Positions 6,337 through 63,126 of a stretch of DNA of 64,000 nt are shown here, piece after piece. The notes under the pieces were generated by a model, which worked only from the letters and a program-made list of their open reading frames with translations, was not told the origin of the DNA and made no database searches. This DNA comes from Rhizobacter koreensis. GTDB lineage: Bacteria > Pseudomonadota > Gammaproteobacteria > Burkholderiales > Burkholderiaceae_C. The position numbers were made by a program, and so were the translations under genes. The DNA lies in contig NZ_JABWMJ010000013.1 in assembly GCF_013366375.1 (NCBI RefSeq), positions 1 to 64,000 on the forward strand. Direction: 5' to 3'. Positions within the stretch are counted from its first letter, which is position 1, and the number at the start of each line of letters is the position of its first letter.

Positions 6337-6558
6337 CTCTTGGGGGAGAACTTCGTAGGAACGTCCTTCGTCGCTCCAGCGCCACGGAGCCCATGCGCAC
6401 CGGCGCGCTTCCGCACATGCGGCCTTCGATCCGAGTTATCCAGCGCGAGCCGAGGCGATGTGGGCGGCCGAGGCACGGCCGGGATCGCAAGCACGCATAA
6501 CCCTTCCTCTCCGAGCATGACACCCCGTGACCAGCTCGACAGCTTCACGGGTGCCTCC

Positions 6559-7092: not shown

Positions 7093-7157
7093 GAGGGTCT
7101 CAACGGATGGTATGCGGGCGGGTAGCGCGGGTCATGTCTTCAGTGCTCGCAGTGAAA

Positions 7158-17582: not shown

Positions 17583-17840
17583 ATGAGCACTAAAAACATC
17601 ACCCGCGGCGCTGCGGGGAAGCGCTTGTCAACGGCATTGACCGCGCTGTGCGAGGCGAAGTTGTCAAGTATGTCGATTTTCACGTACGTCGTTGGCACTG
17701 GCGTGCGTTCGAATTCGTCGACCTCCCCATCACCTTTGGGGGCGGCGTCGATCGTCCTGGCGACGGTTCTTGACCGGCCGCGCGCATTGCCGCATGACCC
17801 GCCGTACTCGCCCGCAAACCATCCGCTGAGGCCCACATGA
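17583..17840 (+). other. 85-codon open frame between promoter G and DUF6328; coding status doubtful
   Basis: It starts with ATG a few bases after the -10 of site G and ends in an ATGA overlap with the DUF6328 start, a layout typical of translational coupling. No domain, signal peptide or convincing composition is visible, and the left copy lacks most of this segment. It may be a leader, an inserted remnant on either strand, or chance. Confidence 0.2.
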
Positions 17841-18373
17841 GTCAGCCCGATAACTCGGGCGCACAACCCGACAACGAACTTGGGGACGTGCTAGCCGAGT
17901 TAAGAGTCGTTCTTCCCGGCGCGCAGCTACTCTCCGGATTTTTGCTGACTCTTCCCTTCAGTACCGGGTTTGCGAAGATTGTTGATTTCGAGAAAGTCAT
18001 TTTTGTCTTCAGCTTTGTGTCGAGTCTGATCAGCTTGATCTTGTTCACGGCGCCGGCGTATCAGCACCGCTTGATGCGGCCTTTGACGGATCGCGGGCGT
18101 TTCAAGGACCTTATCTCGCGTCAGATGCTTGTTGGGTCGGTGTTCCTCGCGTCCGCGCTCATCCTCTCATGCTGGCTCGTGCTGTCCGAAATCGTTGGCG
18201 CGCGCTCCGGCTTGGTGGTTGCCGCCGCTTGTATGGCTGTGTTGGGGGCGCTGTGGTGGCTTGCTCCGCTGCTGCTTCGGCGGCGATGGAGCGCGGCTTC
18301 GGCGCGCAACGGCGTTGAGGCGACGCCCCGAGGCGAAGTCTCATCGAGGGCAACGAACCCGCGATTTGATTGA
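17837..18373 (+). CDS. DUF6328 family membrane protein (right copy)
   Basis: 178 residues, four membrane helices, nearly the same protein as the left copy at 6559-7092. Differences cluster in the N-terminal dozen residues and the C-terminal tail, while the ELRVVLPGAQ and APAYQHRLMRPL segments are unchanged. Both copies remaining open with conserved cores suggests selection on function. It lies behind promoter site G and about 230 nt ahead of the ATP-grasp gene. Function unknown; a membrane partner of the ATP-grasp protein is an inference from the conserved pairing. Confidence 0.75.
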   Translation: MSQPDNSGAQPDNELGDVLAELRVVLPGAQLLSGFLLTLPFSTGFAKIVDFEKVIFVFSFVSSLISLILFTAPAYQHRLMRPLTDRGRFKDLISRQMLVGSVFLASALILSCWLVLSEIVGARSGLVVAAACMAVLGALWWLAPLLLRRRWSAASARNGVEATPRGEVSSRATNPRFD

Positions 18374-18601
18374 CCGGCACCCGCCGCTGTCGAGCTGCTC
18401 ACATGGCGAGATGTCAGCTTTGATGGTTAAAGAAGAGTTAGACGTGCTTGCGATCTCCGCCGCCCATCCGCTGCCCACATCGCCTCGGCTCGCGCTGGAT
18501 AACTCGGATCGAAGGCCGCATGTGCGGAAGCGCGCCGGTGCGCATGGGCTCCGTGGCGCTGGAGCGACGAAGGACGTTCCTACGAAGTTCTCCCCCAAGA
18601 G

Positions 18602-20416
18602 ATGCGATCGATGAAGGACCCGCCGCGCCCGCTGGCCGCGACGCAGAGGCGAAGTGCCTTCGGCGTCGTCATCGTGGCGGCCGCCTATGCTGCCGCGACG
18701 GGTTTGGCTCAGCTCGAGGCACTCGTGCCGGCGTGGCGATTCGACTCGCCCGTTCAGTTCAACGCGAATTTCGCTGTTGCGGTGGGCTTCGCTTGGGCGA
18801 CGTTTCAGCTGTGGGTACATGCCGCAGATCGGGTCGAGCGGCGCCGCTGGTGCGCCGCGCTCCTCGTGATGACGCTGCTTGCGACGATCCAAGCCTCGGA
18901 TTGGCTCGTGGACACCAGCGTGATTCGGAACGACTGGCTGGACGTGCCGCTGTGGCTCGCGGCGACGCGGCTGCTGTACGGCATTGTCCGCCATCCGCGT
19001 GAGCGGCCATGGGCGCGATCTGCCTGGCGCTTGGGGCTAGTCTTCCAGACGGCCTTTATCGTCTTCGACCTTGGGAACGGGCCGCTATTCAAGAGCATCG
19101 TTGCCGGCCCCGACGCCGTGGCCTCGATCAGCGAGTGGACCGAGCTCCTCGCCATCGAATCCTACGTGATGGCGCTGGTCTTGCGGACGGTGGGGCCGCC
19201 GGCGCCGACTGCAGCTTCGTTCGGCCTCGCCGTCGGCTCCCGGGCACGCTGGCTGTTCGATGCTGCCCGGCTCTTCAGAAAGGCGAGTTACCCTCCAGTG
19301 CGGGCTGCCTTCTATCCGGGCGTGCGCGCGGTCCTGATCGTGATCACGAGCCTCTGGCTCGCTCTCACCGTGGGACGGCGACTGCACGGAGCGAAAATCG
19401 CATCCGGCTGGGTGCAGCTGCGCGACCTGCTCGTTCTCGGGCTGCGTGACGGCTTCGACCCGCTGAGCTACTACTACCAGGATCTGTACCGGGCGACCGG
19501 CCGCGCGGAAGCCGGCTTCTACCTCACGCGCCACGAGACCAAGAACGGGCTGCTCTACGCGCTGAACCGCATGCGGGCGCAGCCGTATGCGGCCAGTGAG
19601 ATGGGCGACAAGCTGCTGTTTGCGGACTGCTGCATACGGGCGGGTATCGCGGTGCCGGCGATCCTCCTGTGCGGCGGGGCGCATGGTATCGAATGGCGCG
19701 CGCCACGCCCGACGCTCGACCGAGACCTCTGCGTTAAGCCTCGCCACGGCCGCGGTGCGCGCGGCGTCACGATTTACCAGCGCATCGCGCCCCAGCGATT
19801 CCGCGATGCAGCGGGCGCCGAAATCGATCTCGAGCAGTTGATCCGGCGGCTCGAGGAACGGGGTCGGCGCATGCCGTGGATCCTGCAGCCGCGCCTCTTC
19901 AATCATGCGGCGATCGCCGACCTCGCCTCGTCGTCGCTGATCGCGGTCCGCGTCATCACATGCCTGAACGAGGCCGGAGAACCCGTCACAACCCACGGCG
20001 TGTTGCGCATCCTCGGTAGGCTGGAGCCGACGTGGCCCTTTGACGACGAGCTGGGCGCCCCGATCGATTTGGTGACCGGGGCGCTTGGGGAGCTGGCGAG
20101 CGATCGGCTCGATCGCTGCGCTGAACGCTGGCCGCACCATCCGATGACCGGCAGAGCCGTTGCGGGCAGCGTTCTTGCGGACTGGCCGGCGGTCCGCCAG
20201 CTCGCCGAAGCGGCGCACCGTCTGTTTGATCACCGCACCCTAATTGGCTGGGACGTGGCATTGACGCCCGAGGGGCCGCTGCTACTCGAAGGCAACAACA
20301 GCCTTGACGTCATGTTCCCGCAACGCGTCTATCGCCAGGGATTCGGTCGTGGACCGCTGGGGCCATTGTTACAGCATCATCTGGAATTGCTGGGGCGCTC
20401 GCGCGGGCTTGAGTGA
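18602..20416 (+). CDS. integral membrane protein with C-terminal ATP-grasp domain (right copy)
   Basis: 604 residues, same length as the left copy, with no frameshift or stop. The amino half is membrane-embedded (five to six helices within the first 200 residues, another at about 246-265). The carboxyl half has the ATP-grasp nucleotide-binding KPRHGRGARGV, a conserved GWDVALTPEGPLLLEGN segment and catalytic-type Asp/Glu/Asn residues. The nearest known relatives are the sugar-transfer-associated ATP-grasp proteins found in capsule and polysaccharide loci. Substitutions relative to the left copy are scattered (for example VLLWL to VPLWL and GEAVA to PDAVA). Its operon position after a Pb/Cd-type promoter suggests a metal-induced ligase acting at the membrane. 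Confidence 0.75.
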   Translation: MRSMKDPPRPLAATQRRSAFGVVIVAAAYAAATGLAQLEALVPAWRFDSPVQFNANFAVAVGFAWATFQLWVHAADRVERRRWCAALLVMTLLATIQASDWLVDTSVIRNDWLDVPLWLAATRLLYGIVRHPRERPWARSAWRLGLVFQTAFIVFDLGNGPLFKSIVAGPDAVASISEWTELLAIESYVMALVLRTVGPPAPTAASFGLAVGSRARWLFDAARLFRKASYPPVRAAFYPGVRAVLIVITSLWLALTVGRRLHGAKIASGWVQLRDLLVLGLRDGFDPLSYYYQDLYRATGRAEAGFYLTRHETKNGLLYALNRMRAQPYAASEMGDKLLFADCCIRAGIAVPAILLCGGAHGIEWRAPRPTLDRDLCVKPRHGRGARGVTIYQRIAPQRFRDAAGAEIDLEQLIRRLEERGRRMPWILQPRLFNHAAIADLASSSLIAVRVITCLNEAGEPVTTHGVLRILGRLEPTWPFDDELGAPIDLVTGALGELASDRLDRCAERWPHHPMTGRAVAGSVLADWPAVRQLAEAAHRLFDHRTLIGWDVALTPEGPLLLEGNNSLDVMFPQRVYRQGFGRGPLGPLLQHHLELLGRSRGLE

Positions 20417-20430
20417 CGCGCCGTCAGCTG

Positions 20431-20458
20431 GCGGCCCTCGGGAGCGATGGAGGGCCGC
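20431..20458 (+). terminator. hairpin after ATP-grasp gene
   Basis: GCGGCCCTC and GAGGGCCGC form a 9-bp stem with a 10-base loop, 14 nt after the stop codon, followed by a pyrimidine-rich TGCTTTCCTCC. A plausible terminator without a strong T tract. Confidence 0.5.
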
Positions 20459-42267: not shown

Positions 42268-44721
42268 TCAAACCGTCATTGGTCGGCCGGCGTGCTCCGC
42301 CGTGGCCGTCGAGGTGTCCTGCTGCTGCAGCGAACGCCAGCGCCGTAGCATCAGCGCGTTAGTGACGACGCTCACGCTGCTGAAGGCCATCGCCGCGCCC
42401 GCGATCATCGGGCTGAGCAGGCCCAGGGCGGCGAGCGGGATGCCGAGCACGTTGTAGCCGAACGCCCACCACAGGTTCTGCTTGATCTTCGCGTAGGTGC
42501 GGCGCGACACGTCGATCGCATCGGCCACCAGACGCGGGTCGCCGCGCATCAGCGTGATGCCGGCCGTCTCCATTGCCACGTCGGTGCCGGTCGACATCGC
42601 GATGCCCACGTCGGCCGCTGCGAGGGCCGGTGCATCGTTGATGCCGTCGCCAACCATTGCCACCACCCGGCCGGCACTGCGCAGCTCCTGCACGATGGCG
42701 GCCTTGTCGCCCGGGAGCACCTCGGCACGCACCTCGTCGATGCCGAGCTCTGCCGCGACCACGCGAGCGCTGCCCCGGTTGTCGCCGGTGAGCATCACCG
42801 TCTGGATGCCGAGCTGGTGGAGCCGGCCGACCGCCTGCCGCGCCGAGGCCTTGATGGTGTCGCCGAAAGCCAGCAGACCGAGCAGTTCAGTCCGCTCACC
42901 GTCCTTGCGCACGAGCCACGAGATCGTCCGGCCTTGGCCCTCGAGGCGGTCCTCTTCAGCCGCCAAGGCTCCGGCCGCAATACCCAGCTCGCGAAGCAGC
43001 CGGCTGCTTCCCAGGGCGTAGACGCGTCCCTCCACAGCCGCTTCGAGACCTCGCCCGGGCAAGGCTTGAGCATTCCGGGTTTCGGGCAGTTGCAGGCCTT
43101 CCTTTCGCACCTTGTCCATCACGGCATGCGCCAGAGGGTGTTCGCTCGTGCTCTGCAGGGCACCCGCCAGTCGCAGCACGTCCTGGCGCGCGACGCCGGC
43201 GGCGGGAACCACCGCGACCAGCGAAGGTCGGCCTTCGGTCAGCGTTCCCGTCTTGTCGAACGCGACGGTGGTGACGGCGTGCGCCAACTCGAGCGCCTGT
43301 GCGTCCTTGATCAGGATGCCTTGTCGGGCAGCCACCCCCGTGCCGGCCATGATGGCCGTCGGCGTGGCCAAGCCGAGCGCACACGGGCATGCGATCACGA
43401 GAACGGCAACAGCGTTGATCAACGCCTGTTCCCAGTTGCCGCTGGCCAACGCCCAGCCGAGAAACGTCAGCAACGCAATCATCAGCACGACAGGCACGAA
43501 AACCGCACTCACGCGGTCCACGACGCGCTGGATCGGCGCCTTCGCGGCCTGAGCCGACTCGACCATGCGGATGATGCGCGCCAGCGTCGTCTCGGCGCCG
43601 ACGGCGAGCGTCTTGACGGTCAGCACGCCCTCCGCGTTGATCGCGCCGCCCGTCACCTTGTCGCCGACCCCTTTGGCGATCGGCAGGCTCTCTCCGGTGA
43701 TCAGCGACTCGTCGACATGGCTGCGGCCCTCGGTCACCTCGCCGTCCACCGCCACGCGTTCGCCCGCGCGAACCACCACCAGATCGCCGACGCCGACCTC
43801 CTCGACCGGGACTTCGATCTCGACACTCTCACGTCGGACCCGTGCGATTGCCGGGCGCAGCGCGTTCAACGCGCGGATCGCGTCTGCCGTTTGCCGCTTT
43901 GCGCGCGCCTCGAGCCACTTGCCCAGCAGCACCAACGTGATCACGGCGGCCGACGCCTCGAAGTAGAGGTGCGGCATGCCCTGGCTGGCGTGGCGCCAGA
44001 GCAGGTAGACGGAAAGCCCGTAGGCGGCGGACGTGCCGAGCGCAACAAGGAGGTCCATGTTGCCGGCGCGCGCGCGCACCGCCTTGTAGCCGGCGCGGTA
44101 GAAGCGCCACCCAAGCCAAAACTGCACGGGGGTGGCGAGTGCCAGCTGCAGCCAGCCGCCGAGCATCCAGTCGACACCCAAGAGCTGCAGAAGCATCGGT
44201 GCAACAAGCGGAATGGTCAGCATGGCGCTCACCGCTACCGGCCACCACTCAGGCAGGCGTCGGGGCGCGGGCGTCGACTCGCTTTCGCTTGGCTGTTTGA
44301 CTGCATAGCCCGCTTTTTCGATCGCGGCCCTGAGCGCCATGACCGGAACCGTGCTGAGGGCTTCGACGGAGGCGTTCTCGGTCGCCAGGTTGACAGAAGC
44401 CGAGAGCACCCCTGGAACCTTGAGCAGCGCCATTTCCACGCGGGCCACACACGAGGCGCAGGTCATGCCCTCCACTCCAAGGTCCAGCCGCTGGGTGGCT
44501 ACGTCGTAGCCGGCCTTGCGGACGGCGGCAGCGAGCGCGTCGGGGCTTACCGCCGCGTCGGCCTGGACGGAAGCCTGTTCCGTGGCCACGTTGACGCTCG
44601 CGTCCCGCACTCCAGGAACCGCCTTCAGCGTCTTCTCCACGCGCAAGACGCACGACGCGCAGGTCATCCCCATGACCTGCAAGGTGATCCCGTTCGGGTC
44701 GGTGACGGCTGCAGTGTTCAT
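42268..44721 (-). CDS. copA: Cu(I)-exporting P1B-1 ATPase with two HMA domains
   Basis: 817 residues from the ATG at 44721 ([11 protein letters not shown]); the longer start at 44739 is possible. Two N-terminal metal domains carry GMTCASC (about residues 18 and 86). Then come TGES, the CPC copper site in [14 protein letters not shown], phosphorylation [24 protein letters not shown] and [10 protein letters not shown]. This is the typical CopA that exports Cu(I) to the periplasm. A CueR promoter precedes it and cueR follows it. Confidence 0.95.
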
Positions 44722-44756
44722 CCGGTGCTCCTGGTGCAAATGTGCTGCACTAAGTA

Positions 44757-44904: not shown

Positions 44905-45159
44905 ATGATTTCCTTTCAAGTGAGTGACATGACCTGCGGCCACTGCGTGAGCACCATCACCAAGGCAATAGAGGCTGCCGACAAGAACGCGACAGTCAAC
45001 ATCGACTTGGCGAGCCAGCGGGTCGCGATCGAGCCGACCGAGGCTGACGCGCAGCAGCTGCGTGAAGCGATCGAGGACGCCGGTTACACGCCGGTGGCGG
45101 TTCCCACCGACGCGGTCGCGCCAGCGAGCAAGCCGCGTCGCGGTTGCTGCGGCGGCTGA
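44905..45159 (+). CDS. copZ: CopZ-type copper chaperone
   Basis: 84 residues: a ferredoxin-like HMA fold with the Cu(I) site DMTCGHCV (about 8-15) and a C-terminal extension ending RRGCCGG, which adds a second pair of cysteines. It hands cytosolic Cu(I) to CopA-type ATPases and may deliver copper to CueR. The promoter of CueR type lies directly upstream; the second copper ATPase follows after about 55 nt in the same direction. Confidence 0.92.
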
Positions 45160-45215
45160 GCACATCTCCGGCCGACGGCACCCCGTCTGCCGGCCCTTTC
45201 AAAAGGAGCATCGTC

Positions 45216-47492
45216 ATGCAGCGCAACGCGCCCGCCCCGGCCGAGCCCCACGTGGAGCACTCCCACCACCATCACAGCCACCACCAGGGGGGTGCCGAGT
45301 CGGCCACTGCCGACCGGCCGGGCGCCCCAAATGGTCACACGCCGACCAAGCCGATGGCGGCACCGGTAGGTGCGTCTGCCAACAACGCCGAATACACCTG
45401 CCCGATGCACCCGCAGGTCCGTCAGATCGGCCCGGGAAACTGCCCGATCTGCGGTATGGCGCTCGAGCCGGTGCTGGCGACAGCTCAGACAGGCGACAGC
45501 CCCGAGCTGCGTGACATGACCAGGCGCTTCTGGGTCGGTTTGGTTCTAAGCGTTCCAGTAGTGGTTCTCGAGATGGGCGCGCACCTGGTCGACCTGCATG
45601 CAGTCGTCGCACCGCAGGTCTCCAACTGGCTTCAGCTCGCGTTTGCGACGCCGGTCGTGCTGTGGGCGGGCTGGCCATTTTTCGTGCGAGCGCTCGCATC
45701 GCTGCGCAACCGCAGCCTCAATATGTTCACGTTGATCGCCTTGGGCACGGGCGCCGCCTGGCTATACAGCGTCGTAGGCACCGTGGCGCCCGGGCTCTTC
45801 CCGGCCGAGTTCCGGGGCATGGGTGGCGCGGTGGCCATCTACTTCGAGGCAGCAGCCGTCATAACCGTGCTGGTCCTGCTCGGCCAAGTGCTTGAGCTGC
45901 GGGCGCGCGAGAAAACTTCGGGGGCGATCCGCGCCCTCCTCGACTTGGCGCCAAAGACCGCCGTTCGGGTGTCGGCCGGTGGCTCCGACGAGTCGGTGCC
46001 GATCGACACGATCCAGGTCGGCGAGAGCCTGCGGGTTCGACCCGGCGAGAAGATCCCCGTCGACGGCGAGCTGATCGAGGGCAAGGGAACCGTCGACGAG
46101 TCGATGGTCACGGGCGAGCCGATGCCAGTGGTCAAGACACCGGGCTCCAAAGTCACCGCCGGCACGCTGAATCAGACCGGAGGCTTCGTGATGCGCGCCG
46201 AAAAGGTCGGCGCGGACACCCTGCTCTCGCAGATCGTCCACATGGTCGCGGCCGCCCAGCGCAGCCGGGCTCCGATCCAGCGCATGGCCGACCAGGTTGC
46301 CGGCTGGTTCGTACCAGCGGTGATCGCGGTTGCACTCGCGACCTTCGGCGCATGGCTGCTGTGGGGTCCGAGCCCGGCGTTTTCCTATGCGCTGGTCACC
46401 TCGGTGGCCGTGCTGATCATCGCGTGCCCTTGTGCGCTTGGTCTTGCCACTCCGATGTCGATCATGGTCGGCGTCGGCAAGGGCGCTCAGATCGGCGTGC
46501 TGATCCGCGACGCGGAAGCACTCGAGCGGATGGAGAAGGTCAACACACTGGTGGTCGACAAGACCGGAACCCTGACGGAAGGCCGTCCGCGCGTCGTCCA
46601 TCTGGAACCGGCACCGGGCTTCGATGCAGGCGCGGTGCTCCAGAAGCTCGCGAGCGTCGAACGCGCGAGCGAGCATCCTTTGGCCGCAGCGATCGTGGCG
46701 GATGCGCAGGAGCGCAAGCTCGCGCTATCGCCGGTGATCGATTTCGACTCGCCGCTTGGCAAAGGCGTCGTGGGCACCGTGGACGGTGCGCGTGTGGTGT
46801 GCGGCAGCGCAAAGTTCCTTGCCGAACAAGCACTCGATGTTTTCGCGCTGCAGGCGGCGGCCGAGGACGTGCGATCGAAAGCGGCGACCGTCATCTTCGT
46901 TGGCATCGACGGGCGCGTGGCCGGGTTCGTCGGGATTGCAGACCCGATCAAGACCACGACCCCGCAGGCGATCGCGGCGCTTCGTCAAGCGGGCGTCCGC
47001 GTCGTGATGCTGACCGGTGATGGCAAGACCACGGCCGAGGCCGTTGGGCGCCAGCTCGGGATCGACGAGGTGATCGCGGACGTCTTGCCGGAGGAGAAGG
47101 CGTCCGTCGTGCAGCGCCTGAAGGCGAGCCGGGTGGTCGCGATGGCAGGAGACGGCGTGAACGACGCTCCTGCGCTTGCTGCCGCCGACGTCGGCATCGC
47201 GATGGGCACCGGCACTGACGTCGCGATGGAGAGCTCAGGCGTGACGCTGCTCAAGGGCGATCTGATGGGCATCGCCCGGGCGCGTGCGCTGTCGCAAGCG
47301 ACGATGCGCAACATCCGGCAGAACCTCTTCCTGTCATTCGCCTACAACGTCGCTGGCATTCCGCTTGCGGCTGGGTTGCTGTACCCGTTCTTCGGCCTGC
47401 TGCTCTCGCCCGTCGTAGCAGCTGCCGCCATGGCACTTTCAAGCGTCAGCGTTATCGGCAACGCGTTGCGATTGAGGGCGGTTAACGTGTGA
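45216..47492 (+). CDS. copper-translocating P1B ATPase with His-rich/HMBD N-terminus
   Basis: 758 residues from the ATG at 45216. The N-terminus has a His-rich run ([13 protein letters not shown]) and one heavy-metal-binding domain [21 protein letters not shown] instead of HMA domains. Then P-type motifs: [46 protein letters not shown] and [10 protein letters not shown]. The CPC site and HMBD match the silver/copper ATPases of copper islands (CopF/SilP-like). It shares the copZ promoter. The TGDG in place of TGDN in the nucleotide region is a small oddity seen in this subgroup. Confidence 0.93.
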
Positions 47493-50614: not shown

Positions 50615-50974
50615 ATGTTCCATCTGTTCCGGATCGCCGTGATCTTCCTGCTGCTAACTGGGCTCTCTGTCCAGGGCGCCTGGGCCGCCGCGTTTCAGTG
50701 TGCGCAAGGCCAGGAACTGCAACAGGTCGTGCAGAAGGAACCTCCCGCTGACCACGCCGCGATGCTCCTCGAGCACGACGGTGGAGCCCAGTTCGACGCT
50801 CAGGACTGCGAAAAGTTCTGGACGTCAGCCTGCACGGCCATGGCGTTGCTGCCCGCGCAGCCCAGCGTTGCTGCAGTGCATGGAGCTTTTGGGCTGGTGC
50901 CGCCCTCGGCGTCGGTGCCCGTGCTCTTCTTCACCGACGGCCCGGACCGGCCGCCGCGACTTCACTCCAGCTAG
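50615..50974 (+). CDS. small exported protein, DUF2946-like (3 of 3)
   Basis: 119 residues from the ATG at 50615; an upstream ATG at 50579 is less likely. Signal or anchor helix ([19 protein letters not shown]), a moderately His/Cys-containing middle ([21 protein letters not shown]) and the C-terminal [14 protein letters not shown]. The last part matches the FLSDGQERPPRS end of the protein at 41275, so these are two divergent members of one family. It begins the block of beta-propeller and oxidase genes. Confidence 0.6.
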
Positions 50975-51102
50975 GGCTCTGCCTGCTGTCGCCCTTTTTC
51001 GGCGCAGCGGCGGTGACCCATTCGTTTCCGTTCTTTCGCCGCCACGGCGCAGCAAGCGTGCTCGTCGTGTCTGGCCCATCGAAAAACAGTCTGGAGTTGA
51101 AG

Positions 51103-51366
51103 ATGAAATGCAACTTGAAAGTCATGCTGTCCGTGGCTGCCGCGATGGCGGCCTCCGCCGGCCTCGCCTATCTCACCTTCGAGGAAGCACGAGCCGCGAT
51201 CCTCGCAAGCCTGCCCCTCCTGGCGGTGCTTCTTTGCCCCATCTCGATGCTCGTGATGATGAAACTGATGCACTCCAGCGGCGACGGTGCCCAGCGCTCC
51301 ACGGGTCCGACCAAGGCCCACCGGCCTGCTGCCGACCCGGTCAACACGGCCAAGGAGGTCTCATGA
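51103..51366 (+). CDS. DUF2933-like small membrane protein
   Basis: 87 residues with two membrane helices (VMLSVAAAMAASAGLAYL, LASLPLLAVLLCPISMLVMM) and a Met/Ser/Pro-containing tail. The spacing of helices and the PLLAVLLCPISMLVMM segment match the DUF2933 family common in copper and silver operons. Its stop codon overlaps the start of the next gene (ATGA), so the two are translationally coupled. Confidence 0.75.
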   Translation: MKCNLKVMLSVAAAMAASAGLAYLTFEEARAAILASLPLLAVLLCPISMLVMMKLMHSSGDGAQRSTGPTKAHRPAADPVNTAKEVS

Positions 51367-52301
51367 AGCGAACCTGGACCTCTCATGCGACGGCACTGGC
51401 GCTGGCACTGGGTCCTTTGGCGTGGCCGGGTGCCGGCGCAAGCGAGCCGGTCACGCTGACCCATGTGCACGGCCTGAGCTACAGCGCCGACGGCTCCAGG
51501 CTCATGGTGCCGAGTCACCACGGGCTGGCGGTTTACGCGGCGGGACAGTGGAGCAAGGCGCCGGGCCCCGCCCACGATTTCATGGGTTTCTCCGGCACCC
51601 GGACGGCCCTGTACAGCAGCGGCCATCCCGCAGCAGGCTCCGGCCTGAAGAACCCGTTCGGACTGATCAAGAGCAAGGACGGCGGCAAGAGCTGGCTTCA
51701 GCTCGGCCTCGAGGGCGAATCCGACTTCCACACGATGGCGACCAGCTACGGAACGAACGCCGTCTACGTGGTGAACCCCCATCCCAACTCGCGGATGAGT
51801 GCGCAAGGCATCTACTTCACGTTAGACGATGGCCGCACCTGGCAGCGCGCCCAGGGGCGGGGCCTGGCCGGGCAGCTCCATGGCCTGGCCGTCCATCCTT
51901 CGGATCCCGCCACGGTGGCTGCCGCGACCGATCAGGGGCTCTTTGTGTCGAAGGATTCGGGAACCACCTACCGGGCAGTCGTCAGCGGCAAGCGGGTGCT
52001 GTCCGCAGCCTTCGCTTTGGACGGCAAGGATCTGTGGTGGAGCGGCTTCGACGGACGACCGACGCTGTCGGTGCTGGCCCTCCAGCAGCCGGACGCAAGT
52101 TCGCGCCTGGCGAACCTGCCTGCCTTGGGCGAGGATGCCGTCAGCTACTTCGCGCAGAACCCGGCGCGGCCGAACGACATGGCGATCGCCACCTTCCGCA
52201 AGAGCGTCTTCATCAGCCAGGACGGAGGCCGCAACTGGGTGCTCATCGCCGACGAGGGTACAACGGCAGGCAACCCGGCGGTTGCCCAAGAGAGACGTTG
52301 A
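51363..52301 (+). CDS. periplasmic beta-propeller protein (sortilin/BNR-type, F510_1955-like)
   Basis: 312 residues: signal peptide to GASEP, then repeated BNR-type units (SKDGGKSWLQLGLEGE, LDDGRTWQRAQGRG, SKDSGTTYRAV, SQDGGRNWVLIAD), each with the Asp-box S-x-D-x-G-x-T/S-W. Such propellers sit in copper operons next to small membrane proteins and multicopper oxidases; their role is unknown, possibly scaffold or ligand-binding. It overlaps the DUF2933-like gene by 4 nt. Confidence 0.75.
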   Translation: MKRTWTSHATALALALGPLAWPGAGASEPVTLTHVHGLSYSADGSRLMVPSHHGLAVYAAGQWSKAPGPAHDFMGFSGTRTALYSSGHPAAGSGLKNPFGLIKSKDGGKSWLQLGLEGESDFHTMATSYGTNAVYVVNPHPNSRMSAQGIYFTLDDGRTWQRAQGRGLAGQLHGLAVHPSDPATVAAATDQGLFVSKDSGTTYRAVVSGKRVLSAAFALDGKDLWWSGFDGRPTLSVLALQQPDASSRLANLPALGEDAVSYFAQNPARPNDMAIATFRKSVFISQDGGRNWVLIADEGTTAGNPAVAQERR

Positions 52302-52304
52302 CCG

Positions 52305-52424
52305 ATGGGCATACCCGCGAGGATCGCAATCGGGGTGCTGGCCGCCATCGGCGCGCTGGCAGTCATGGGTGTCGCCGCAATGGCCCTGATGCACTTTTCC
52401 ATGATGGGTGGCTGGGGCTGCTGA
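52305..52424 (+). CDS. 39-residue membrane peptide with Met-rich end
   Basis: Starts 3 nt after the propeller stop codon. One helix (IAIGVLAAIGALAVMGVAAMAL) is followed by MHFSMMGGWGC. The tight spacing to both neighbours and the Met/His/Cys tail indicate a real small protein that could bind Cu(I) at the membrane face. No family known to me. Confidence 0.6.
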   Translation: MGIPARIAIGVLAAIGALAVMGVAAMALMHFSMMGGWGC

Positions 52425-52449
52425 AGCGTCGAAGCACGGACGAATCCCG

Positions 52450-54039
52450 ATGATCAACGACAAACGCCGCCTCCTGCTGAAAGGAGGATCGGTCGCGGCC
52501 GCCCTGGCGCTGCCGGCCACCCGCGTGGTGGCAGCCGGCCGTCCCGAAGTTGCTGGGGGCGCGGATGTCCACATCGAACTGCGGGCAGGCCACGGCGAAG
52601 CGGCTTTGCGACCGGGCAAGCCGACTTCGGTGTGGCGCTACACGGGCCGCCTGCTCGCGGGCGACCCGGCCTCGCTGCAGGTGCATGCGGGCAGCTCGCT
52701 CGGTCCAACGCTACGGCTGCGTCGCGGTCAGCGCGTCCGCATCGAGCTGCTCAACGAGCTGCCCGAAGCGACCACCATCCACTGGCACGGGCTCCACGTG
52801 CCCGACGACATGGACGGCCACCCTCGCCATGCGGTCGCGCCGGGGCAGCGCTACATCTACGACTTCACGGTCCTCAATCGCGCCGGCACTTACTGGTACC
52901 ACGCGCATCCGCACGGCCGGACCGGGCCGCAGGTGTACCGCGGCCTGGCGGGCCTGCTGCTGATTGACGATGACGAGGAGTCCGCGCTGGACCTGCCGCG
53001 GGGCGCGTACGACCTGTCCCTGGTGCTTCAGGACCGCAGCTTCGACAGCGACAACCAGCTGGTCTATCCCGTATCCGAGAGCGCGGAAAGCAGCATGCAT
53101 GGCCGCATGCAAGGCGGCGGGATGATGGGCCGCGGCGGCATGGCGGGAATGATGGCCCGGATGATGGGCGTCCTGGGCGACGAACTCCTGCTCAACGGCC
53201 GCATGCCGCAGCGTCTGGAGGTGCGGGCTCGACCTTACCGGCTGCGCCTGGTGAACGCTTCCAACACCCGGACCTACAAGCTGGCGTGGAGCAACGGCAC
53301 ACCGTTGGCGGTGATCGGCACCGATGGCGGACTCCTGGACAGCCCGCAGGCGCGCGAGTATCTGATGTTGGCACCGGCCGAGCGCGCCGAGGTCTGGGTC
53401 GACTTTGCACGGTGGGCTCCCGGTGCCGCGCCGGCGCTGGAAAGTCTGGAGTTCGACGGCGCCATGACGATGGGCAGCGGCAGGTTGCCCGACGGCTCCC
53501 GCTTCGAGGTGCTCAGGTTCGCCGTGGTCGGCAGTGAACGTGCTGCGCCGCGCCAGCCGCCTCAACGGCTGACGGAGTTGCCCGCGGCCCGGCCGGCCAT
53601 CGCCGTCAACGCCCGCCGCCCGAAGGTGTTCGACCTCACGATGGGCATGATGGTCTGGGGCGTCGACGGCCGGTCCTTCGAGATGCTGCAGGCCAGCCCC
53701 GAGGAAACCGTGAAGCTGGGCACCCATGAAATCTGGGAGTTCCGCAACGAGGGCCGCGGCGCCATGATGGGCATGGTCATGGCGCATTCCATGCACATCC
53801 ACGGGGTGCAGTTTCGGGTGATCGGCCGCCAGGTCATGGACCGGTTCGCGGCGGCCTACCGCACGGTGAGCGGCGGGCTGGTCGATGGCGGCTGGAAGGA
53901 CACGGTGCTGGTCATGCCCGGCGAGCGGGTGCAGGTGCTGGTGGGATTTTCCGACTATTCCGGCCTGTTCCTGTATCACTGCCACATGCTGGAGCACGAG
54001 GATTCGGGGCTCATGCGCAACTACCTCGTCAAAGCCTGA
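52450..54039 (+). CDS. CueO-like multicopper oxidase
   Basis: 529 residues from the ATG at 52450 (MINDKRRLLLKGG), with a Tat-like signal in which the twin arginine is Arg-Arg followed by LLLKGG. Copper ligands: TIHWHGLHVPDDMDG, YWYHAHPHGRTG, HSMHIHGVQFRV and YHCHMLEHEDSGLM. A Met-rich insertion (MHGRMQGGGMMGRGGMAGMM) lies near residue 220, as in CueO, where it recruits Cu(I). It oxidises Cu(I) to Cu(II) in the periplasm. Part of the propeller and small-peptide unit. Confidence 0.92.
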   Translation: MINDKRRLLLKGGSVAAALALPATRVVAAGRPEVAGGADVHIELRAGHGEAALRPGKPTSVWRYTGRLLAGDPASLQVHAGSSLGPTLRLRRGQRVRIELLNELPEATTIHWHGLHVPDDMDGHPRHAVAPGQRYIYDFTVLNRAGTYWYHAHPHGRTGPQVYRGLAGLLLIDDDEESALDLPRGAYDLSLVLQDRSFDSDNQLVYPVSESAESSMHGRMQGGGMMGRGGMAGMMARMMGVLGDELLLNGRMPQRLEVRARPYRLRLVNASNTRTYKLAWSNGTPLAVIGTDGGLLDSPQAREYLMLAPAERAEVWVDFARWAPGAAPALESLEFDGAMTMGSGRLPDGSRFEVLRFAVVGSERAAPRQPPQRLTELPAARPAIAVNARRPKVFDLTMGMMVWGVDGRSFEMLQASPEETVKLGTHEIWEFRNEGRGAMMGMVMAHSMHIHGVQFRVIGRQVMDRFAAAYRTVSGGLVDGGWKDTVLVMPGERVQVLVGFSDYSGLFLYHCHMLEHEDSGLMRNYLVKA

Positions 54040-54124
54040 CGTCTAGCGACGCGCGTGCTCTTGCCGCAAGCTTTTCGACTCCCTTTCTCTGCGAGACGCG
54101 AACACTTTCTCAAGCGACTCCCGT

Positions 54125-54721
54125 ATGAGCAACACCCCAGTTGATGCCAACAAGCGGATGTGGCTGATCGCCTCCACTTGCGCCGGAGCAGTAGGGGCTG
54201 GATTCGCAGCCGTTCCCTTCGTGAGCAGCTTCCAAACATCCGAGCGCGCCAAGGCCGCGGGCGCACCTGTGGAAGTGGACATCGGTGCGGTCAATCTAGG
54301 CGAGAAGATCACGGTCGAGTGGCGGGGCAAGCCGGTTTGGGTCATGAAGCGCACGCCCGAGCAGCTCGCCTCTTTGGCCTACACGCAAGAACAGGTGGCG
54401 GATCCGATGTCTCAGCGCACCGCGTACCCCACTCCCAAGTATGCGCAGAACCAGCACCGCTCGATAAAGCGCGGGGTATTCGTCGCGGTGGGCATCTGCA
54501 CGCACCTGGGCTGCTCGCCGACCGACAAACTGCAGCCCGGCCCGCAGCCCTCGCTTCCTGATGACTGGCAGGGCGGCTTTCTATGCCCCTGCCATGGCTC
54601 GACCTTTGACCTTGCGGGCCGCGTGTTCCGCAACAAGCCCGCACCGGACAACCTCGAAGTGCCGCCGCACATGTACCTGTCCGAATCGCGCGTGCTGATC
54701 GGTGTGGATCAGGCCACCTGA
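54125..54721 (+). CDS. petA: Rieske iron-sulfur protein of cytochrome bc1 type, stand-alone
   Basis: 198 residues: one N-terminal membrane helix with Tat-like character (RMWLIASTCAGAVGAG), then the bc1-type Rieske domain with the 2Fe-2S ligands CTHLGC and CPCHGS and the typical final ESRVLIGVD. In a complete bc1 complex this is co-transcribed with cytochrome b and c1 genes; neither is here. It begins 85 nt after the CueO-like oxidase, so it could be a translocated extra copy or serve electron transfer related to the copper oxidases. Confidence 0.9.
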   Translation: MSNTPVDANKRMWLIASTCAGAVGAGFAAVPFVSSFQTSERAKAAGAPVEVDIGAVNLGEKITVEWRGKPVWVMKRTPEQLASLAYTQEQVADPMSQRTAYPTPKYAQNQHRSIKRGVFVAVGICTHLGCSPTDKLQPGPQPSLPDDWQGGFLCPCHGSTFDLAGRVFRNKPAPDNLEVPPHMYLSESRVLIGVDQAT

Positions 54722-55178
54722 ACCTCGGAAACTGGTGGCAAGCGGCAGCAGCGCTCCTGCCGGCTGAGCAATCGAGCCGACAATCTGCTGAGGACCAGAT
54801 GCGCGAATCTCATCAAGGCTGCGGGCACACGAAGGCTGTCCTCCAAAGCAAGCCGGATTCATGCGTGCCGTCCGCTTCCCATCATCAAGTGGAGCTTGCA
54901 AAGGCGTCGGATCCATACATGCACAAAAAGTACGACTACCCCGCATGCAAATCAGACGTCGTTCCGTTGGGAGCACGATCGCCGGCTCAGAAACGCCAGA
55001 CAGCCGACGGGATCGACGGCAGCACTCGCTGCAGGTACTCAACCAGTGACGTCAACATTCAGGGACCGACGGCGGCAAAGACGCAGCCAGCGCGGATCAT
55101 CTCGGCACGAACGACAAAGTGGCTTTGATCTGCGTCGCGGCTTGAAGAACGTTGACGACCAATCCCGCAGCCAGGAAT
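54722..55178. other. intergenic between petA and the sensor kinase, no gene recognised
   Basis: About 460 nt. One plus-strand frame (54799-55128) is open but Lys/Ser/Gln-rich and matches no family. Convergent gene ends on both sides. Confidence 0.5.
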
Positions 55179-56582
55179 CTACGGCAGGGGGAAGGCCAGC
55201 GTGACCACCGTGAGGCCGTCCGGACTGCTGCTTACCTGGGCGCTACCCCCGTGCGCCTGCATGATCGACCTCACGATGGCAAGCCCGAGGCCAGATCCGC
55301 CGTCCGCTCGTGCCCGTGCAACATCGAGTCTCACAAACCTCTCGAACATGGCGTCGAGCCGGTCCGGAGCGATCGGGCGGCCTCGATTGCTCACCGCCAA
55401 GCTGGCAACGGCCTCGGTGCGCTCGACGGTGACCTGAACCGTGCTCGCTGGGTCCGCATGGCGGATCGCGTTTGTCAGAAGGTTGGTGATCGCTCGTTGC
55501 ATAAGCAGGCGGTCTGCCTGGATCAAAGCGTTGCCGCTCACCTCGACCTGGATCCTCCGCTCCTCGGCCAAGAGGGACAAGAACTCGGTGACTCGGCGTG
55601 CCTCTTCGCCCAGACCGACCGGCGTTCTATCCAAGACCGCGGCTCCTTGCTCGGCCTGCGCCAGAAACAGCATGTCATGGATCAGACGCGTCAGGCGATC
55701 CAGCTCGTCGATGTTGCCAGCAAGCACGTCACGAAGCTCGACCGAAGAGCGCTCACGTGAAAGCGCAACCTGGGTGCGGCCGAGCAGCGTGGCGACAGGG
55801 GTACGCATCTCGTGCGCCAGGTCACCCGAGAACTGCGAGAGCCTGGTCACGCCCTCGTCAATCCGCTCGAGCATGGCGTTGAATGCATCGGCCAACCCCT
55901 TGAGCTCCGCCGGCACGCCGGTCCTGGGCAAGCGTTTTCCGAGCGTCTTAGGGGTGATCGACGAAGCCCGCTGGGCAAAGCTTCGCAGTGGCACCAGGCC
56001 GGCCCGTGCGATCAACCAGGCGCCGATGGCGACGAGCAACAGCAGCAGCGGCAGCCCGATCATCCCGGCGCGCGCGTAGCCGGCCAGGACGCGACGGTCG
56101 TCCCGGATATCGAGTGAGAGCACGAAGCGCACCAACTGGCCCTCGCCGGTGCTGCTTCGCCCCGACAGGGATACGTAATAGTCCTTGTCCGACGCTTGCC
56201 AGCGAATGAGCGCTCCCAGCGGGCCCTCTGGCAGGCGAACGGATTCCACTGCGATCGAGGAAAAGCTGGCGAGCAGTCGTCCGTCGCCCTGATCGACGAG
56301 TGCAAGGTGAAGGTCGTCATGCGCGATCAGGAGATCGGCGAAGTGGTAAGCGTTGGCAGGGATGTCGCTGGCCAGCCCTATCTCGAGCAGCAGGTGCTGC
56401 ACGAGGTCGCGCTTGCCTTCCAACTCGACGAGTTCCCTCTGCTCGAGCTCGCGGGACAAAACCCAGTAGCCTCCGGCAGCAACCAGCCCCACGGTGAAGA
56501 GTCCGAATAGCGCGCTGGCAGCGGCGACGCGAAGCGCGAGAGAGACCTCGGTCAACCATGCGCGCGGTCTACGGACCCTCAT
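55179..56582 (-). CDS. copS: heavy-metal sensor histidine kinase (CopS/CusS type)
   Basis: 467 residues: a first helix (VAAASALFGLFTVGLVAAGG), a periplasmic sensor domain of about 150 residues, a second helix (GLPLLLLLVAIGAWLIARA), a HAMP segment, the phospho-acceptor His in SGDLAHEMRTPVATLLG and the ATP-binding motifs NLLTNAIRHAD and DGGSGLGLAIVRSI. The architecture matches CusS/CopS, which sense periplasmic Cu(I)/Cu(II) and phosphorylate the paired regulator. It overlaps the regulator gene by 4 nt. Confidence 0.9.
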   Translation of the reverse strand: MRVRRPRAWLTEVSLALRVAAASALFGLFTVGLVAAGGYWVLSRELEQRELVELEGKRDLVQHLLLEIGLASDIPANAYHFADLLIAHDDLHLALVDQGDGRLLASFSSIAVESVRLPEGPLGALIRWQASDKDYYVSLSGRSSTGEGQLVRFVLSLDIRDDRRVLAGYARAGMIGLPLLLLLVAIGAWLIARAGLVPLRSFAQRASSITPKTLGKRLPRTGVPAELKGLADAFNAMLERIDEGVTRLSQFSGDLAHEMRTPVATLLGRTQVALSRERSSVELRDVLAGNIDELDRLTRLIHDMLFLAQAEQGAAVLDRTPVGLGEEARRVTEFLSLLAEERRIQVEVSGNALIQADRLLMQRAITNLLTNAIRHADPASTVQVTVERTEAVASLAVSNRGRPIAPDRLDAMFERFVRLDVARARADGGSGLGLAIVRSIMQAHGGSAQVSSSPDGLTVVTLAFPLP

Positions 56583-57259
56583 GTGCTCGGCCGCGCCTCT
56601 AGCACGTAGCCGACTCCCCGCACCGTGTGAATCAGCTTGACGGCGAACGGGTCATCGACCTTGGCGCGCAAGCGCCGGATCGCCACGTCGACGACGTTGG
56701 TGCCCGAGTCGAAGTGGATATCCCATACGAGCGAGGCGATCTCGGTACGCGAGAGCACGTCACCGGAGCGTTCGGCGAGCAGTGCCAGCAGGGCGAACTC
56801 CTTCGCGCTCAGGTCGAGCCGGGTGTCTCCTCGCATCGCGCTATGCCGAACAGGATCCACCTCGAGGTCGGCGACGCGCAGCACCGGGTCGTGCGCGGCA
56901 GGTCTGCCTCGCCTGAGGAGGGCCCGGACGCGGCCGAGCAATTCCGGGAACTGGAAGGGCTTGGTCAGGTAGTCATCGGCGCCGAGGTCGAACCCCCGCA
57001 CTTTGTCGCTCATCTGGTCGCGCGACGTGAGCATCAAGACCGGGACTTGGCTCGCGCTGCGCAACGCCGAGAGAACGGCAAACCCATCCACGCCCGGCAG
57101 CATGACATCCAGCACCACGAGGTCATGGTCGCCGGTCACGGCAGCATGGAGTCCGTCGGTGCCCGTGAGCGCCGTCTCGACGGCATAGCCACTCTCGGAC
57201 AGGCCCTGGCGCAGGTACTCGAGCGCTTGCGGTTCATCTTCGACGACCAGGATTTTCAC
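56579..57259 (-). CDS. copR: OmpR/PhoB-family response regulator (CopR/CusR type)
   Basis: 226 residues: receiver domain with the phospho-acceptor Asp51 in LVVLDVMLPGVDG, the conserved Lys in DYLTKPF, and a winged-helix DNA-binding domain (KEFALLALLAERSGDVLSR, TNVVDVAIRRLRAKVD, TVRGVGYVLE). It forms a pair with copS directly downstream. Divergent from a promoter at 57309 that shares a motif with the promoter of the CusF gene, so a local CopR regulon is likely. Confidence 0.92.
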   Translation of the reverse strand: MKILVVEDEPQALEYLRQGLSESGYAVETALTGTDGLHAAVTGDHDLVVLDVMLPGVDGFAVLSALRSASQVPVLMLTSRDQMSDKVRGFDLGADDYLTKPFQFPELLGRVRALLRRGRPAAHDPVLRVADLEVDPVRHSAMRGDTRLDLSAKEFALLALLAERSGDVLSRTEIASLVWDIHFDSGTNVVDVAIRRLRAKVDDPFAVKLIHTVRGVGYVLEARPST

Positions 57260-57831: not shown

Positions 57832-57890
57832 GGGTTGCCTACGGGCGACCAATGCGAACCAACACGCTGCTCATCACCCAGGAGCTCAAC

Positions 57891-58274
57891 ATGACACTGC
57901 TCAAGCACTCCATCGCTCTCATCACTTTCGCCGTCGCCGGCGCGGCTTCGGCGGCCGACCCCGCCACCCAACCCCGCATGGACATGTCGATGCCCGGCAT
58001 GGCCATGCCGGGCATGAAGATGGACGCCGCCAAGCCGACTGAAGCGGATTCCGCGACGCTGACCCGTGGCATCGTCAAGAAGGTCGACACCGACCAGGGC
58101 AAGATCACCATACAGCACGAGGCGCTCGAGAACCTGGGCATGCCGGCCATGACGATGGTCTTTCGCGCGGCTGACGCCACGGTTCTGCAGGGTGCGAAGG
58201 CCGGCGAGGCTGTTGCGTTTCGGGCTGAGAAGGTCAACGGCGCCCTGGTCGTGACGCGCCTGGTGGCTCAGTAA
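57891..58274 (+). CDS. CusF-like periplasmic copper chaperone (3 of 3)
   Basis: 127 residues from the ATG at 57891; signal peptide to ASAAD, a Met-rich linker (MDMSMPGMAMPGMKMD), then the CusF barrel with ITIQHEALENLGMPAMTMVF and VAFRAEKVNGALVVTRLV. Copper ligands His, Met and Met are kept; the tryptophan is absent (NLGMPA). First gene after the CopR-box-like promoter, followed by a cupredoxin gene 75 nt downstream, as in the 37 kb block. Confidence 0.88.
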   Translation: MTLLKHSIALITFAVAGAASAADPATQPRMDMSMPGMAMPGMKMDAAKPTEADSATLTRGIVKKVDTDQGKITIQHEALENLGMPAMTMVFRAADATVLQGAKAGEAVAFRAEKVNGALVVTRLVAQ

Positions 58275-58348: not shown

Positions 58349-58861
58349 ATGAAAAGGTCATTCGTCACACTCGCAGCCCTGTTCGCCTTGGCCGGCAGCG
58401 GCTCCGTGGCTTTTGCGACCGGTTCGCACGAGGGGGGCGACGCTGCGGTAGGCGCACCGGGGCAAGCTGCCATGGTGACCCGGACGATCACCGTCGACAT
58501 GACCGACAACATGAGGTTCAACCCAGCGAGCGTCCGGGCCAGTCAAGGCGAGACCATCCGCTTCGTCGTCAAGAACTCCGGCCAGGTCAAGCACGAGTTC
58601 GTCATCGGCTCCGAAAAGGAGCTCAAAGAGCACTACGCCATGATGATGAAGATGCCCGAGATGGAGCATGCGGACGCCAATCAGGTCACCGTCGCGCCGG
58701 GCAAGACCGGAGAGGTGATCTGGCAGTTCACGAAGGCCGGCACGGTCAATTTCGGTTGTCTGCAGCCGGGACACTATGACGCCGGCATGAAAGGCGCAGT
58801 CGTTGTGGCAGCCGCCAAGGGCGCGGCCACGAGCGACGGGCACTCGGACCACAAGCACTGA
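58349..58861 (+). CDS. periplasmic cupredoxin (2 of 2)
   Basis: 170 residues from the ATG at 58349. Signal peptide to AFATG, then a cupredoxin domain nearly superposable on the one at 37279: KHEFVIGSEKELKEHYAMM, Cys/His/Met ligands in VNFGCLQPGHYDAGM. The N-terminal His-rich run is shortened to one His (SHEGG), and the C-terminus ends DGHSDHKH. It probably carries or buffers copper in the periplasm. Confidence 0.88.
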   Translation: MKRSFVTLAALFALAGSGSVAFATGSHEGGDAAVGAPGQAAMVTRTITVDMTDNMRFNPASVRASQGETIRFVVKNSGQVKHEFVIGSEKELKEHYAMMMKMPEMEHADANQVTVAPGKTGEVIWQFTKAGTVNFGCLQPGHYDAGMKGAVVVAAAKGAATSDGHSDHKH

Positions 58862-61131: not shown

Positions 61132-63126
61132 ATGGATGAGATCAAGCATGACCGTGGCCGCCGACGCTTCGTGCAATCGGCTGCCGCGCTGGGCGTTCTC
61201 GATGCGTTCGGAGCACTGGCTCCGGCATACGCGCAAACGGCTCGCGGCGGCAACACCGAAATCCGGGTGGGCGGCGACCGGGTCGCTGATCTCGTGATCG
61301 CCCCGACGCCGATCGAGTTCGGCGGCCGATCCGGATCGGCAGTGACGATCAACGGCACGGTCCCTGGGCCGATCCTTCGCTTTCGCGAGGGCGAGACCGC
61401 GACGCTGCGCGTCACCAACCGCTTGACCCATGACACGTCGGTCCACTGGCACGGCCTCCTCGTGCCGTCGGACATGGATGGCGTCCCCGGCGTGAGCTTT
61501 CCAGGCATCCGGCCCGGCGAGACATTCACGTACCGCTACCGCGTTCGGCAGAACGGCACCTATTGGTATCACAGCCACTCGGCCTTGCAGGAGCAGCTCG
61601 GCCACTACGCCCCGATCGTCATCGAGCCCGCGGGCCGCGATCCGGTCGCGTTCGACCGAGAGCACGTGGTCATGCTGTCCGACTGGACGTTCCGCGACCC
61701 AGAGCGCGCGATCGCCAAGCTGAAGAAGGAGGGCGGGTATTTCAATTACCAGCAACGGACGCTCGGCGACTTCGTCAAGGACGTGCGCGAGATGGGTTGG
61801 AGCGGGGCGGTCAAGGACAGGGCGATGTGGGCCAAGATGCGGATGGATCCGACCGACATCCTCGACGTCACCGGGTCGACCTACACGTACCTGATGAACG
61901 GCCTGCCGGCCGCTGGCAACTGGACCGGCCTCGTCAGGTCCGGCGAGCGCGTTCGCCTTCGCTTCATCAACGGCTCTTCACAAACCTACTTCAATGTCCG
62001 CATTCCCGGACTACCGATGACGATCGTCCAGGCGGATGGTCAGAACGTGCAGCCGGTGACCGTCGACGAGTTTCAGATCGCGACGGCCGAAACCTACGAC
62101 GTCATCGTGCAGCCGCAGGCGGAGCAGGCGTACACCGTGTTCGCCGAGTCGATGGACCGCAGCGGCTACGTCCGTGGCACGTTGGCGACTCGCCCGGGAC
62201 TGGCCGCTCCGGTGCCAGCGTTGCGCAAGCGGCCGCTGCGAAACATGGTGGACATGGGCATGGACATGGAGTCGATGGACATGCCTGGCATGAGCCACGG
62301 CGCCAAGCCGATGGCAATGGACGCTGGCTCGATGCAGGGCATGGCTGCAATGGACCATGGCTCGATGCAAGGGATGCCGGGAATGGACCACGGTGCGCAG
62401 CCACCGGGCTCGATGCCGGGGATGGACATGGGCGCAGGCGCGGCCAAGCCGATGCCAGGCATGGACATGGGCAAGGGCAAGGAAGCCGACGCCATGCAGC
62501 AGATGGCAGGGATGGGCAAAGGCGCAGACAAGTCGATGCCAGGCATGAAGATGGAGGGTATGGAATCGATGGCCGGGATGGACAGCCCGATCAACGGCAA
62601 GCATGGTCCCGACAACCACGGACGTGGCAATACGATGACCGCCATGGTGCAGCGCAACCGCCTCGGCGAGCCTGGCACCGGCCTGGCCGACGTCGGCCAT
62701 CGCGTCTTGGTCTACAACGATCTGAAGGCGCTGGAACCGTCGCGCGACCCGCGCCCTCCACAGCGTGAGATCGAGATGCACCTCACCGGAAACATGGAGG
62801 CCTTCATCTGGGGCATCGACGGCAAGAAGTTCTCGGAGTCCGGGCCGCCGCCGATGGTCCGTGTCGGCGAGCGGGTGCGTCTGACGATGGTCAATGACAC
62901 GATGATGGAACACCCGATGCATCTGCACGGAGTCTTCATGGAGCTCAACAACACGGCCGATCCGGCGCATCGGCCGCGCAAGCACACCATCAACGTCAAG
63001 CCGGCCGAGCGGGTATCGCTGGATTTCACGTACGACGAGCCTGGGAACTTCGCGTTCCACTGCCACCAGCTCTTCCACATGGAAGCGGGCATGTTCGGGT
63101 TCTTCAACGTCAGCGACCCGGCCTGA
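61132..63126 (+). CDS. copA: CopA/PcoA-type multicopper oxidase with Met-rich repeats
   Basis: 664 residues. A Tat signal (RGRRRFVQSAAALG) precedes the cupredoxin domains. Copper ligands: SVHWHGLLVPSDMDG, YWYHSHSALQEQLG, HPMHLHGVFMEL and AFHCHQLFHMEAGM. A long insert (about residues 375-490) is a Met/Asp/Gly-rich tract with MDMESMDMPGMSHGAKPM and many MPGMDM units, able to bind multiple Cu ions. It oxidises and sequesters copper in the periplasm. copB follows 10 nt downstream; copS/copR lie 4 kb upstream. The name copA here is the plasmid-type oxidase, not the ATPase. Confidence 0.95.
   Translation: MDEIKHDRGRRRFVQSAAALGVLDAFGALAPAYAQTARGGNTEIRVGGDRVADLVIAPTPIEFGGRSGSAVTINGTVPGPILRFREGETATLRVTNRLTHDTSVHWHGLLVPSDMDGVPGVSFPGIRPGETFTYRYRVRQNGTYWYHSHSALQEQLGHYAPIVIEPAGRDPVAFDREHVVMLSDWTFRDPERAIAKLKKEGGYFNYQQRTLGDFVKDVREMGWSGAVKDRAMWAKMRMDPTDILDVTGSTYTYLMNGLPAAGNWTGLVRSGERVRLRFINGSSQTYFNVRIPGLPMTIVQADGQNVQPVTVDEFQIATAETYDVIVQPQAEQAYTVFAESMDRSGYVRGTLATRPGLAAPVPALRKRPLRNMVDMGMDMESMDMPGMSHGAKPMAMDAGSMQGMAAMDHGSMQGMPGMDHGAQPPGSMPGMDMGAGAAKPMPGMDMGKGKEADAMQQMAGMGKGADKSMPGMKMEGMESMAGMDSPINGKHGPDNHGRGNTMTAMVQRNRLGEPGTGLADVGHRVLVYNDLKALEPSRDPRPPQREIEMHLTGNMEAFIWGIDGKKFSESGPPPMVRVGERVRLTMVNDTMMEHPMHLHGVFMELNNTADPAHRPRKHTINVKPAERVSLDFTYDEPGNFAFHCHQLFHMEAGMFGFFNVSDPA

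Follow-up and report, generated by a model that had tools for sequence, protein, structure and literature searches.

In 2005 Ouchane reportedly described a second, solo Rieske gene (petA2) in Rubrivivax gelatinosus. A second Rieske protein encoded outside the bc1 cluster is given as functionally redundant in Rhodospirillum rubrum and R. gelatinosus in the accessible part of PMC6256036, which cites Ouchane 2005 and Schneider and Schmidt 2005 for this. Like the gene analysed here, petA2 encodes a bc1-type Rieske protein outside petABC in a betaproteobacterium that has a core petABC, although that part of PMC6256036 states no copper link for it. Among copper islands, the merR-copA-cupredoxin-DUF2933-ICMT island of Alteromonas (PMC8478169) has DUF2933 and ICMT genes of the kinds that also flank several of the solo petA genes below; Rieske, ubiquinol and cytochrome are unmentioned in the accessible part of that paper. 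Searches of an open-access library gave no report of a solo Rieske gene in copper islands.

The window, the whole 64,000-nucleotide stretch of Rhizobacter koreensis DNA that was analysed, carries a solo petA as the final gene of a plus-strand run that consists of a BNR protein gene, a possible 39-aa ORF, a CueO-like oxidase gene and petA itself. The features referred to are the following.

42268..44739, minus strand: copper-type P1B ATPase (TIGR01511 over cut-off)
45144..47492, plus strand: copper-type P1B ATPase (TIGR01511 over cut-off)
51360..52301, plus strand: F510_1955-family beta-propeller (BNR) protein, upstream of petA on the same strand (Pfam, NCBIfam)
52305..52424, plus strand: possible hydrophobic 39-aa ORF in the interval between BNR and oxidase genes, seen by eye and not evidence of a gene
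52450..54039, plus strand: CueO-like multicopper oxidase, 529 aa, ATG start, with a Met-rich stretch (Pfam, NCBIfam)
54040..54124, plus strand: gap between the multicopper oxidase gene and petA, 85 nt
54125..54721, plus strand: solo petA, bc1-type Rieske [2Fe-2S] subunit, 198 aa, ATG start (ORF, Pfam, NCBIfam)
55179..56582, minus strand: heavy-metal sensor histidine kinase, CopS/SilS/CzcS subfamily TIGR01386 (NCBIfam)
56579..57259, minus strand: heavy-metal response regulator, CopR/SilR/CzcR subfamily TIGR01387 (NCBIfam)
57852..58274, plus strand: CusF-like periplasmic copper-binding protein (Pfam)
58352..58861, plus strand: cupredoxin-like protein (Pfam)
61132..63126, plus strand: PcoA/CopA-type copper-resistance multicopper oxidase (TIGR01480, 799 bits, cut-off 479)

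The heavy-metal two-component pair (55179-57259) adjoins petA on the opposite strand, and two copper-type ATPases, two multicopper oxidases, CusF and the cupredoxin are encoded no more than about 12 kb from petA. By its gene surroundings, the solo petA appears to be cargo of a copper-resistance island. The upstream oxidase has PRK10965/CueO as its best NCBIfam model and fails the equivalog cut-off (275 against 525 bits), so that it is CueO-like only, which is the label the earlier note had given it; the spacing of 85 nt claimed there agrees with the measured gap. An IS481-type integrase gene lies on the same contig. The window also contains nested inverted repeats, at 4507-6506 and 18432-20431 (2.0 kb, 94%) and at 6607-7136 and 17793-18322 (530 nt, 87%); each 2.0-kb arm has a 604-aa ORF, that of the first arm being a sugar-transfer-associated ATP-grasp protein, and between the arms lie genes for a Zn/Cd-type ATPase and for a fusion of an FTR1 permease with cytochrome c.

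The product of the solo petA has an N-terminal anchor with a K-R motif, a hinge region and two cluster loops, the C-x-H-x-G-C and C-x-C-H-G-S loops being kept as CTHLGC and CPCHGS. It passes the equivalog model for proteobacterial bc1 Rieske proteins (NCBIfam TIGR01416; 201 bits, cut-off 97.4), and Pfam Rieske and UCR_Fe-S_N are each above cut-off, which shows a complete protein and bears out the coordinates and the bc1-type identity proposed from the letters alone. The best solved structure is 8smr_C (E 1.3e-57, residues 4-196 covered), a Rieske protein that sits in a full bc1 complex, unlike the solo petA of the window. At 68 of 70 invariant columns, defined as at least 97% identical among 65 operonic Rieske proteins of the host's family, the orphan has the core state, P38T and K169R being the two departures; at the variable columns it has the commonest residue at just 71 of 114. 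In the other copper-linked copies that were compared, between 55 and 62 of these columns are retained. Judged from its sequence, the orphan is strongly constrained as a bc1 Rieske protein, and the 68 retained positions suggest that it is built into a cytochrome b-c1 complex.

The assembly (5.58 Mb, 41 contigs) contains one other full petA, 69% identical to the orphan, on contig C23, where it is followed after 29 nt by the cytochrome b gene and then by cytochrome c1; this is the core petABC. The sole cytochrome b match in the whole assembly is on this contig, in keeping with the claim that no cytochrome b or c1 gene lies beside the orphan; a search for the core operon had been set beforehand as a check, and its presence clears the refuting condition set there, the lack of a second petA in the genome. 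The orphan is a solo second Rieske gene, with no adjacent cytochrome b and a core petABC elsewhere, in an assembly with 7.18% contamination as a caveat. A recent duplicate of the host's petA is ruled out, the orphan being 69% identical to the core copy against up to 80% to the core petA of Ramlibacter and other Comamonadaceae. No close solo relatives of the orphan were found among the best 80 loci listed, 78 of which have cytochrome b at 150 bits or more and two of which (L158 and L202) have a partial cytochrome b (112 and 104 bits). The GC content is 64.5% for the window, 63.8% for the orphan and 69.5% for the core locus. The three same-genus genomes in the family sample each have a single petA, and the window's oxidase is absent from five same-genus genomes (E 1e-60); these absences and the GC difference fit an acquired island.

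The link between solo petA genes and copper was counted in two sets of genomes. The family set comprises 397 genomes of the host's family, of which 66 (host included) carry at least two petA; 140 of the 142 petA places besides that of the window were analysed, and were called operonic or solo according to whether cytochrome b lay within 3 kb, giving 67 operonic, 72 solo and one at a contig end. With copper reference proteins fixed before counting and a reach of 9.6 kb, copper genes were found near 9 of the 72 solo petA and none of the 67 operonic ones (Fisher p 0.003), or near 7 of 72 solo petA (p 0.014) once two weak cases, each with a single ATPase (L112, at 8.7 kb; L142, at 33% identity), which the preset rule counted, had been dropped by hand afterwards. 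The second set consists of 17 more genomes with at least two petA from order and phylum samples, G101 and G119 being left out as they have fragments only, and was scored by position for cytochrome b, TIGR01511 over cut-off and PF07731, with a copper ATPase or oxidase required within 10 kb. Here 7 of 14 solo petA were copper-linked (chance expectation 0.34 of 14) against 0 of 20 operonic ones, and two solo fragments below cut-off were not copper-linked. Pooled, the counts are 16 of 86 solo against 0 of 87 operonic (p 6e-06), or 14 of 86 without the weak cases (p 3e-05); all these Fisher p values are too small, as the counted loci are related to each other, the seven clear family-set cases forming one clade that spans six genera and two of the second set's seven sharing a genus. 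An operonic petA is also present in all 62 other family-set genomes with a solo petA (one cut by a contig end), and cytochrome b is present in all 17 second-set genomes. The copper link of solo petA is more than an accident of this window. A simple rule that a solo Rieske gene means copper is opposed by the 63 of 72 solo petA of the host's family that have no copper gene within reach.

The same association is found on plasmids. A tblastn search of plasmids matched 118 records, and 26, picked for lineage spread among 60 listed, were inspected, of which 4 had cytochrome b and 22 a solo petA. Copper-type genes lie beside 15 of these 22, cases that span alpha-, beta- and gammaproteobacteria: in 12 the stretch contains named copper genes (L004, L005, L008, L009, L010, L235, L236, L237, L241, L242, L245 and L246) and three have heavy-metal ATPase or CusA/CzcA genes only (L232, L233 and L238). 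Six have no copper genes (L011, L234, L239, L240, L247 and L249), and L243 is ambiguous. Solo petA genes are located in plasmid copper islands, as in the window, in Cupriavidus gilardii (L004), C. oxalaticus (L010), Burkholderia contaminans (L009), Paraburkholderia fungorum (L005), Halomonas (L008), Ruegeria (L237) and Nitratireductor (L245), with CueR, copper ATPase, Cus efflux, oxidase or DUF2933/ICMT genes as neighbours; an ICMT-type methyltransferase gene and a DUF2933 gene lie by petA in several plasmid copper cases. These plasmid copies belong to other Rieske lineages than that of the window, and among the plasmid islands inspected only that of B. contaminans has a window-type oxidase within a few kb of petA. 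The C. gilardii island (plasmid NZ_CP098737.1, mobilizable) lies about 4 kb from mcr-5 and a Tn3 transposase gene. An entire rplM-rpsI-petABC block is present on the Alteromonas macleodii plasmid pBGP9 (L007), with genes for a heavy-metal two-component pair, FTR1 and a cupredoxin close by.

In a tree of 54 Rieske rows, the window's copy is placed among operonic copies from the host's family. One clade (91/83) unites the seven family-set copper cases and another (100/99) the two Cupriavidus copies, whilst the P. fungorum and B. contaminans copies group with Burkholderia copies without copper genes, the Halomonas copy groups with Legionella and Alteromonas, and most alphaproteobacterial copies fall in one group that includes two solo copies without copper genes. 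With groups chosen once a first tree had been seen, a single clade was rejected for the 22 copper-linked rows (p-AU 1.15e-06), for 11 rows of one sequence type (p-AU 0.0022) and for a group of the window and nine further betaproteobacterial rows (p-AU 1.6e-04). By these trees, solo bc1 Rieske genes have entered copper islands more than once, a number of origins given just as more than one because the rows were sampled unevenly, and the window's copy is separate from the other copper-linked copies. The alignment showed no residue change that these copies share with that of the window. A candidate signature of 23 columns that split 13 copper-linked rows from core rows was rejected, and no copper signature is claimed, because at nearly all of them the window's copy agrees with the core rows, and core copies of Legionella or Alteromonas share several of the 23 states.

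Copper control of the window's petA is unproven, because no CueR-type or CusR-like operator was found near petA and no promoter-like site in 50900-55300; a CopRS-type pair adjoins the gene. The 85-nt gap is without a sigma-70-like promoter or terminator-like site. In the 300 nt 5' of petA the best match to the CueR box has 8 of its 14 specified bases, which 52 of 60 random stretches equal, and nothing convincing was found upstream of 27 other starts. Two matches to a CusR-like box are at chance level and far from petA.

The most likely role of the island-borne Rieske protein, at a probability of about 0.5, is that of a spare subunit for the bc1 complex of the host. When copper is in excess, the island would provide extra or replacement Rieske protein. 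After receiving its cluster and being exported, this protein would be built into the host's cytochrome b-c1 complexes, where it would stand in for a subunit that is damaged or lacking. Quinol oxidation via bc1 could then continue, and the island's ATPases, oxidases and efflux genes would meanwhile clear copper. Of the bc1 subunits, only the Rieske protein is known to be exchangeable while the haem subunits stay as they are, which would explain why the island carries petA alone. The lone petA copies in copper clusters of several bacteria suggest spare parts that sustain respiration under copper stress. We infer rather than observe the exchange into bc1, the copper induction and the damage to the core subunit as its reason. 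Accounts of copper resistance usually name export, oxidation and sequestration; a solo, exchangeable bc1 subunit with more than one entry into copper islands, if true, would add target replacement and would point to the bc1 Rieske subunit as a real copper target in bc1-dependent bacteria. It would also predict that petA occurs in such islands only where the host has bc1, and that its loss costs copper tolerance only under growth that requires bc1.

A spare copy had already been proposed in the earlier note. The core petABC elsewhere, the retained invariant positions and the pooled copper counts, from copies that are not one clade, speak for this proposal, which is partly supported; against it stand the copper-unlinked majority of the family's solo petA (63 of 72) and its premise that copper or silver damages bc1 Rieske proteins, which the accessible parts of the literature leave unconfirmed. 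In its accessible part PMC6247083, which reports that silver damages succinate dehydrogenase and cytochrome c oxidase, never names Rieske and mentions bc1 once, in the introduction, bc1 not being among the complexes assayed; the accessible part of PMC5763138 concerns copper damage to Fe-S dehydratases.

Other readings account for parts of the same evidence. It is unlikely that the orphan is, rather than a repair part, an isoform regulated for another condition, such as low oxygen or another redox load, which travels with copper genes by chance: other solo Rieske genes do lie near cytochrome bd genes (15 loci) or hydrogenase or, in 6 of 22 plasmid cases, near no copper gene, and in the accessible part of PMC6256036 a second Rieske of M. 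loti, though within its own bc1 cluster, is expressed at low oxygen, but the copper link recurs across lineages that do not form one clade. Capture of petA by chance in a mobile region would suit the island-like contig, with its IS481-type integrase gene, large inverted repeats and GC content of 64.5% against 69.5% at the core locus; the retention of 68 of 70 invariant positions and the association of 16 of 86 against 0 of 87 make such a passenger distinctly unlikely. Least probable is a mixed assembly in which the contig of the window (C5) comes from another organism and the two petA genes belong to different cells, as might be read from the 7.18% contamination, the lower GC content and the 80% identity to Ramlibacter/Comamonadaceae core petA among the matches listed, against 69% to the host's. 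The assembly has a single cytochrome b, a mobile island accounts for the same facts, and the general copper pattern is independent of this genome.

The oxidase next door offers a further reading, in which the Rieske protein passes electrons to or from the island's oxidase, as HiPIP might elsewhere, and serves as a copper-proof periplasmic electron outlet. The nearest plasmid relatives of the oxidase are 10 records at 54.5-55.5% identity, nine of which (four P. fungorum, five B. contaminans) are also among the plasmid solo petA records listed; the tenth (Caballeronia) has no petA within the 22.8 kb inspected. In all three loci inspected (L009, L250 and L251) a HiPIP gene (Pfam HIPIP) lies directly 3' of the oxidase gene, the slot that the Rieske gene has in the window, and both proteins are high-potential periplasmic Fe-S carriers. 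Partnership is still very unlikely, since the window's Rieske protein keeps the anchor, hinge and cytochrome b-facing loops, none of which a soluble partner would need, and in other islands the nearest neighbours of petA are ICMT, DUF2933 or ATPase genes, not the oxidase gene. Equally doubtful is a broader proposal that mobile copper islands carry a respiratory repair kit which combines exposed periplasmic electron carriers (Rieske, HiPIP and cytochrome c) and thiol-repair proteins with copper export; in the window, Rieske or HiPIP would partner the oxidase, and the island would supply a copper-proof route for respiratory electrons. Of 60 genomes searched, three have the oxidase: the host and two more, of which G151 also carries a copper-linked solo petA, on the same contig about 50 kb away. 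The L009, L250 and L251 islands also hold DsbD, CcdA or TlpA-type genes.

Several observations concern the solo loci at large. A large separate group of solo Rieske genes (L051, L078, L126 and others) includes some that adjoin cytochrome bd genes, and cydA-type genes occur close to 15 solo loci and to no operonic petA; this group may point to a spare Rieske retained for a different stress. A candidate persulfide dioxygenase at L055:8711-9349 was given no family by Pfam, so that no sulfide link is drawn for the largest solo group. In the group of L123, L127, L130 and L133 the gene order, as read in L123 and L130, is DUF2933, ICMT, petA, PPK2, copper ATPase and oxidase. Four divergent solo Rieske genes (L148-L151; 140-147 bits) have a NiFe-hydrogenase small-subunit gene nearby.
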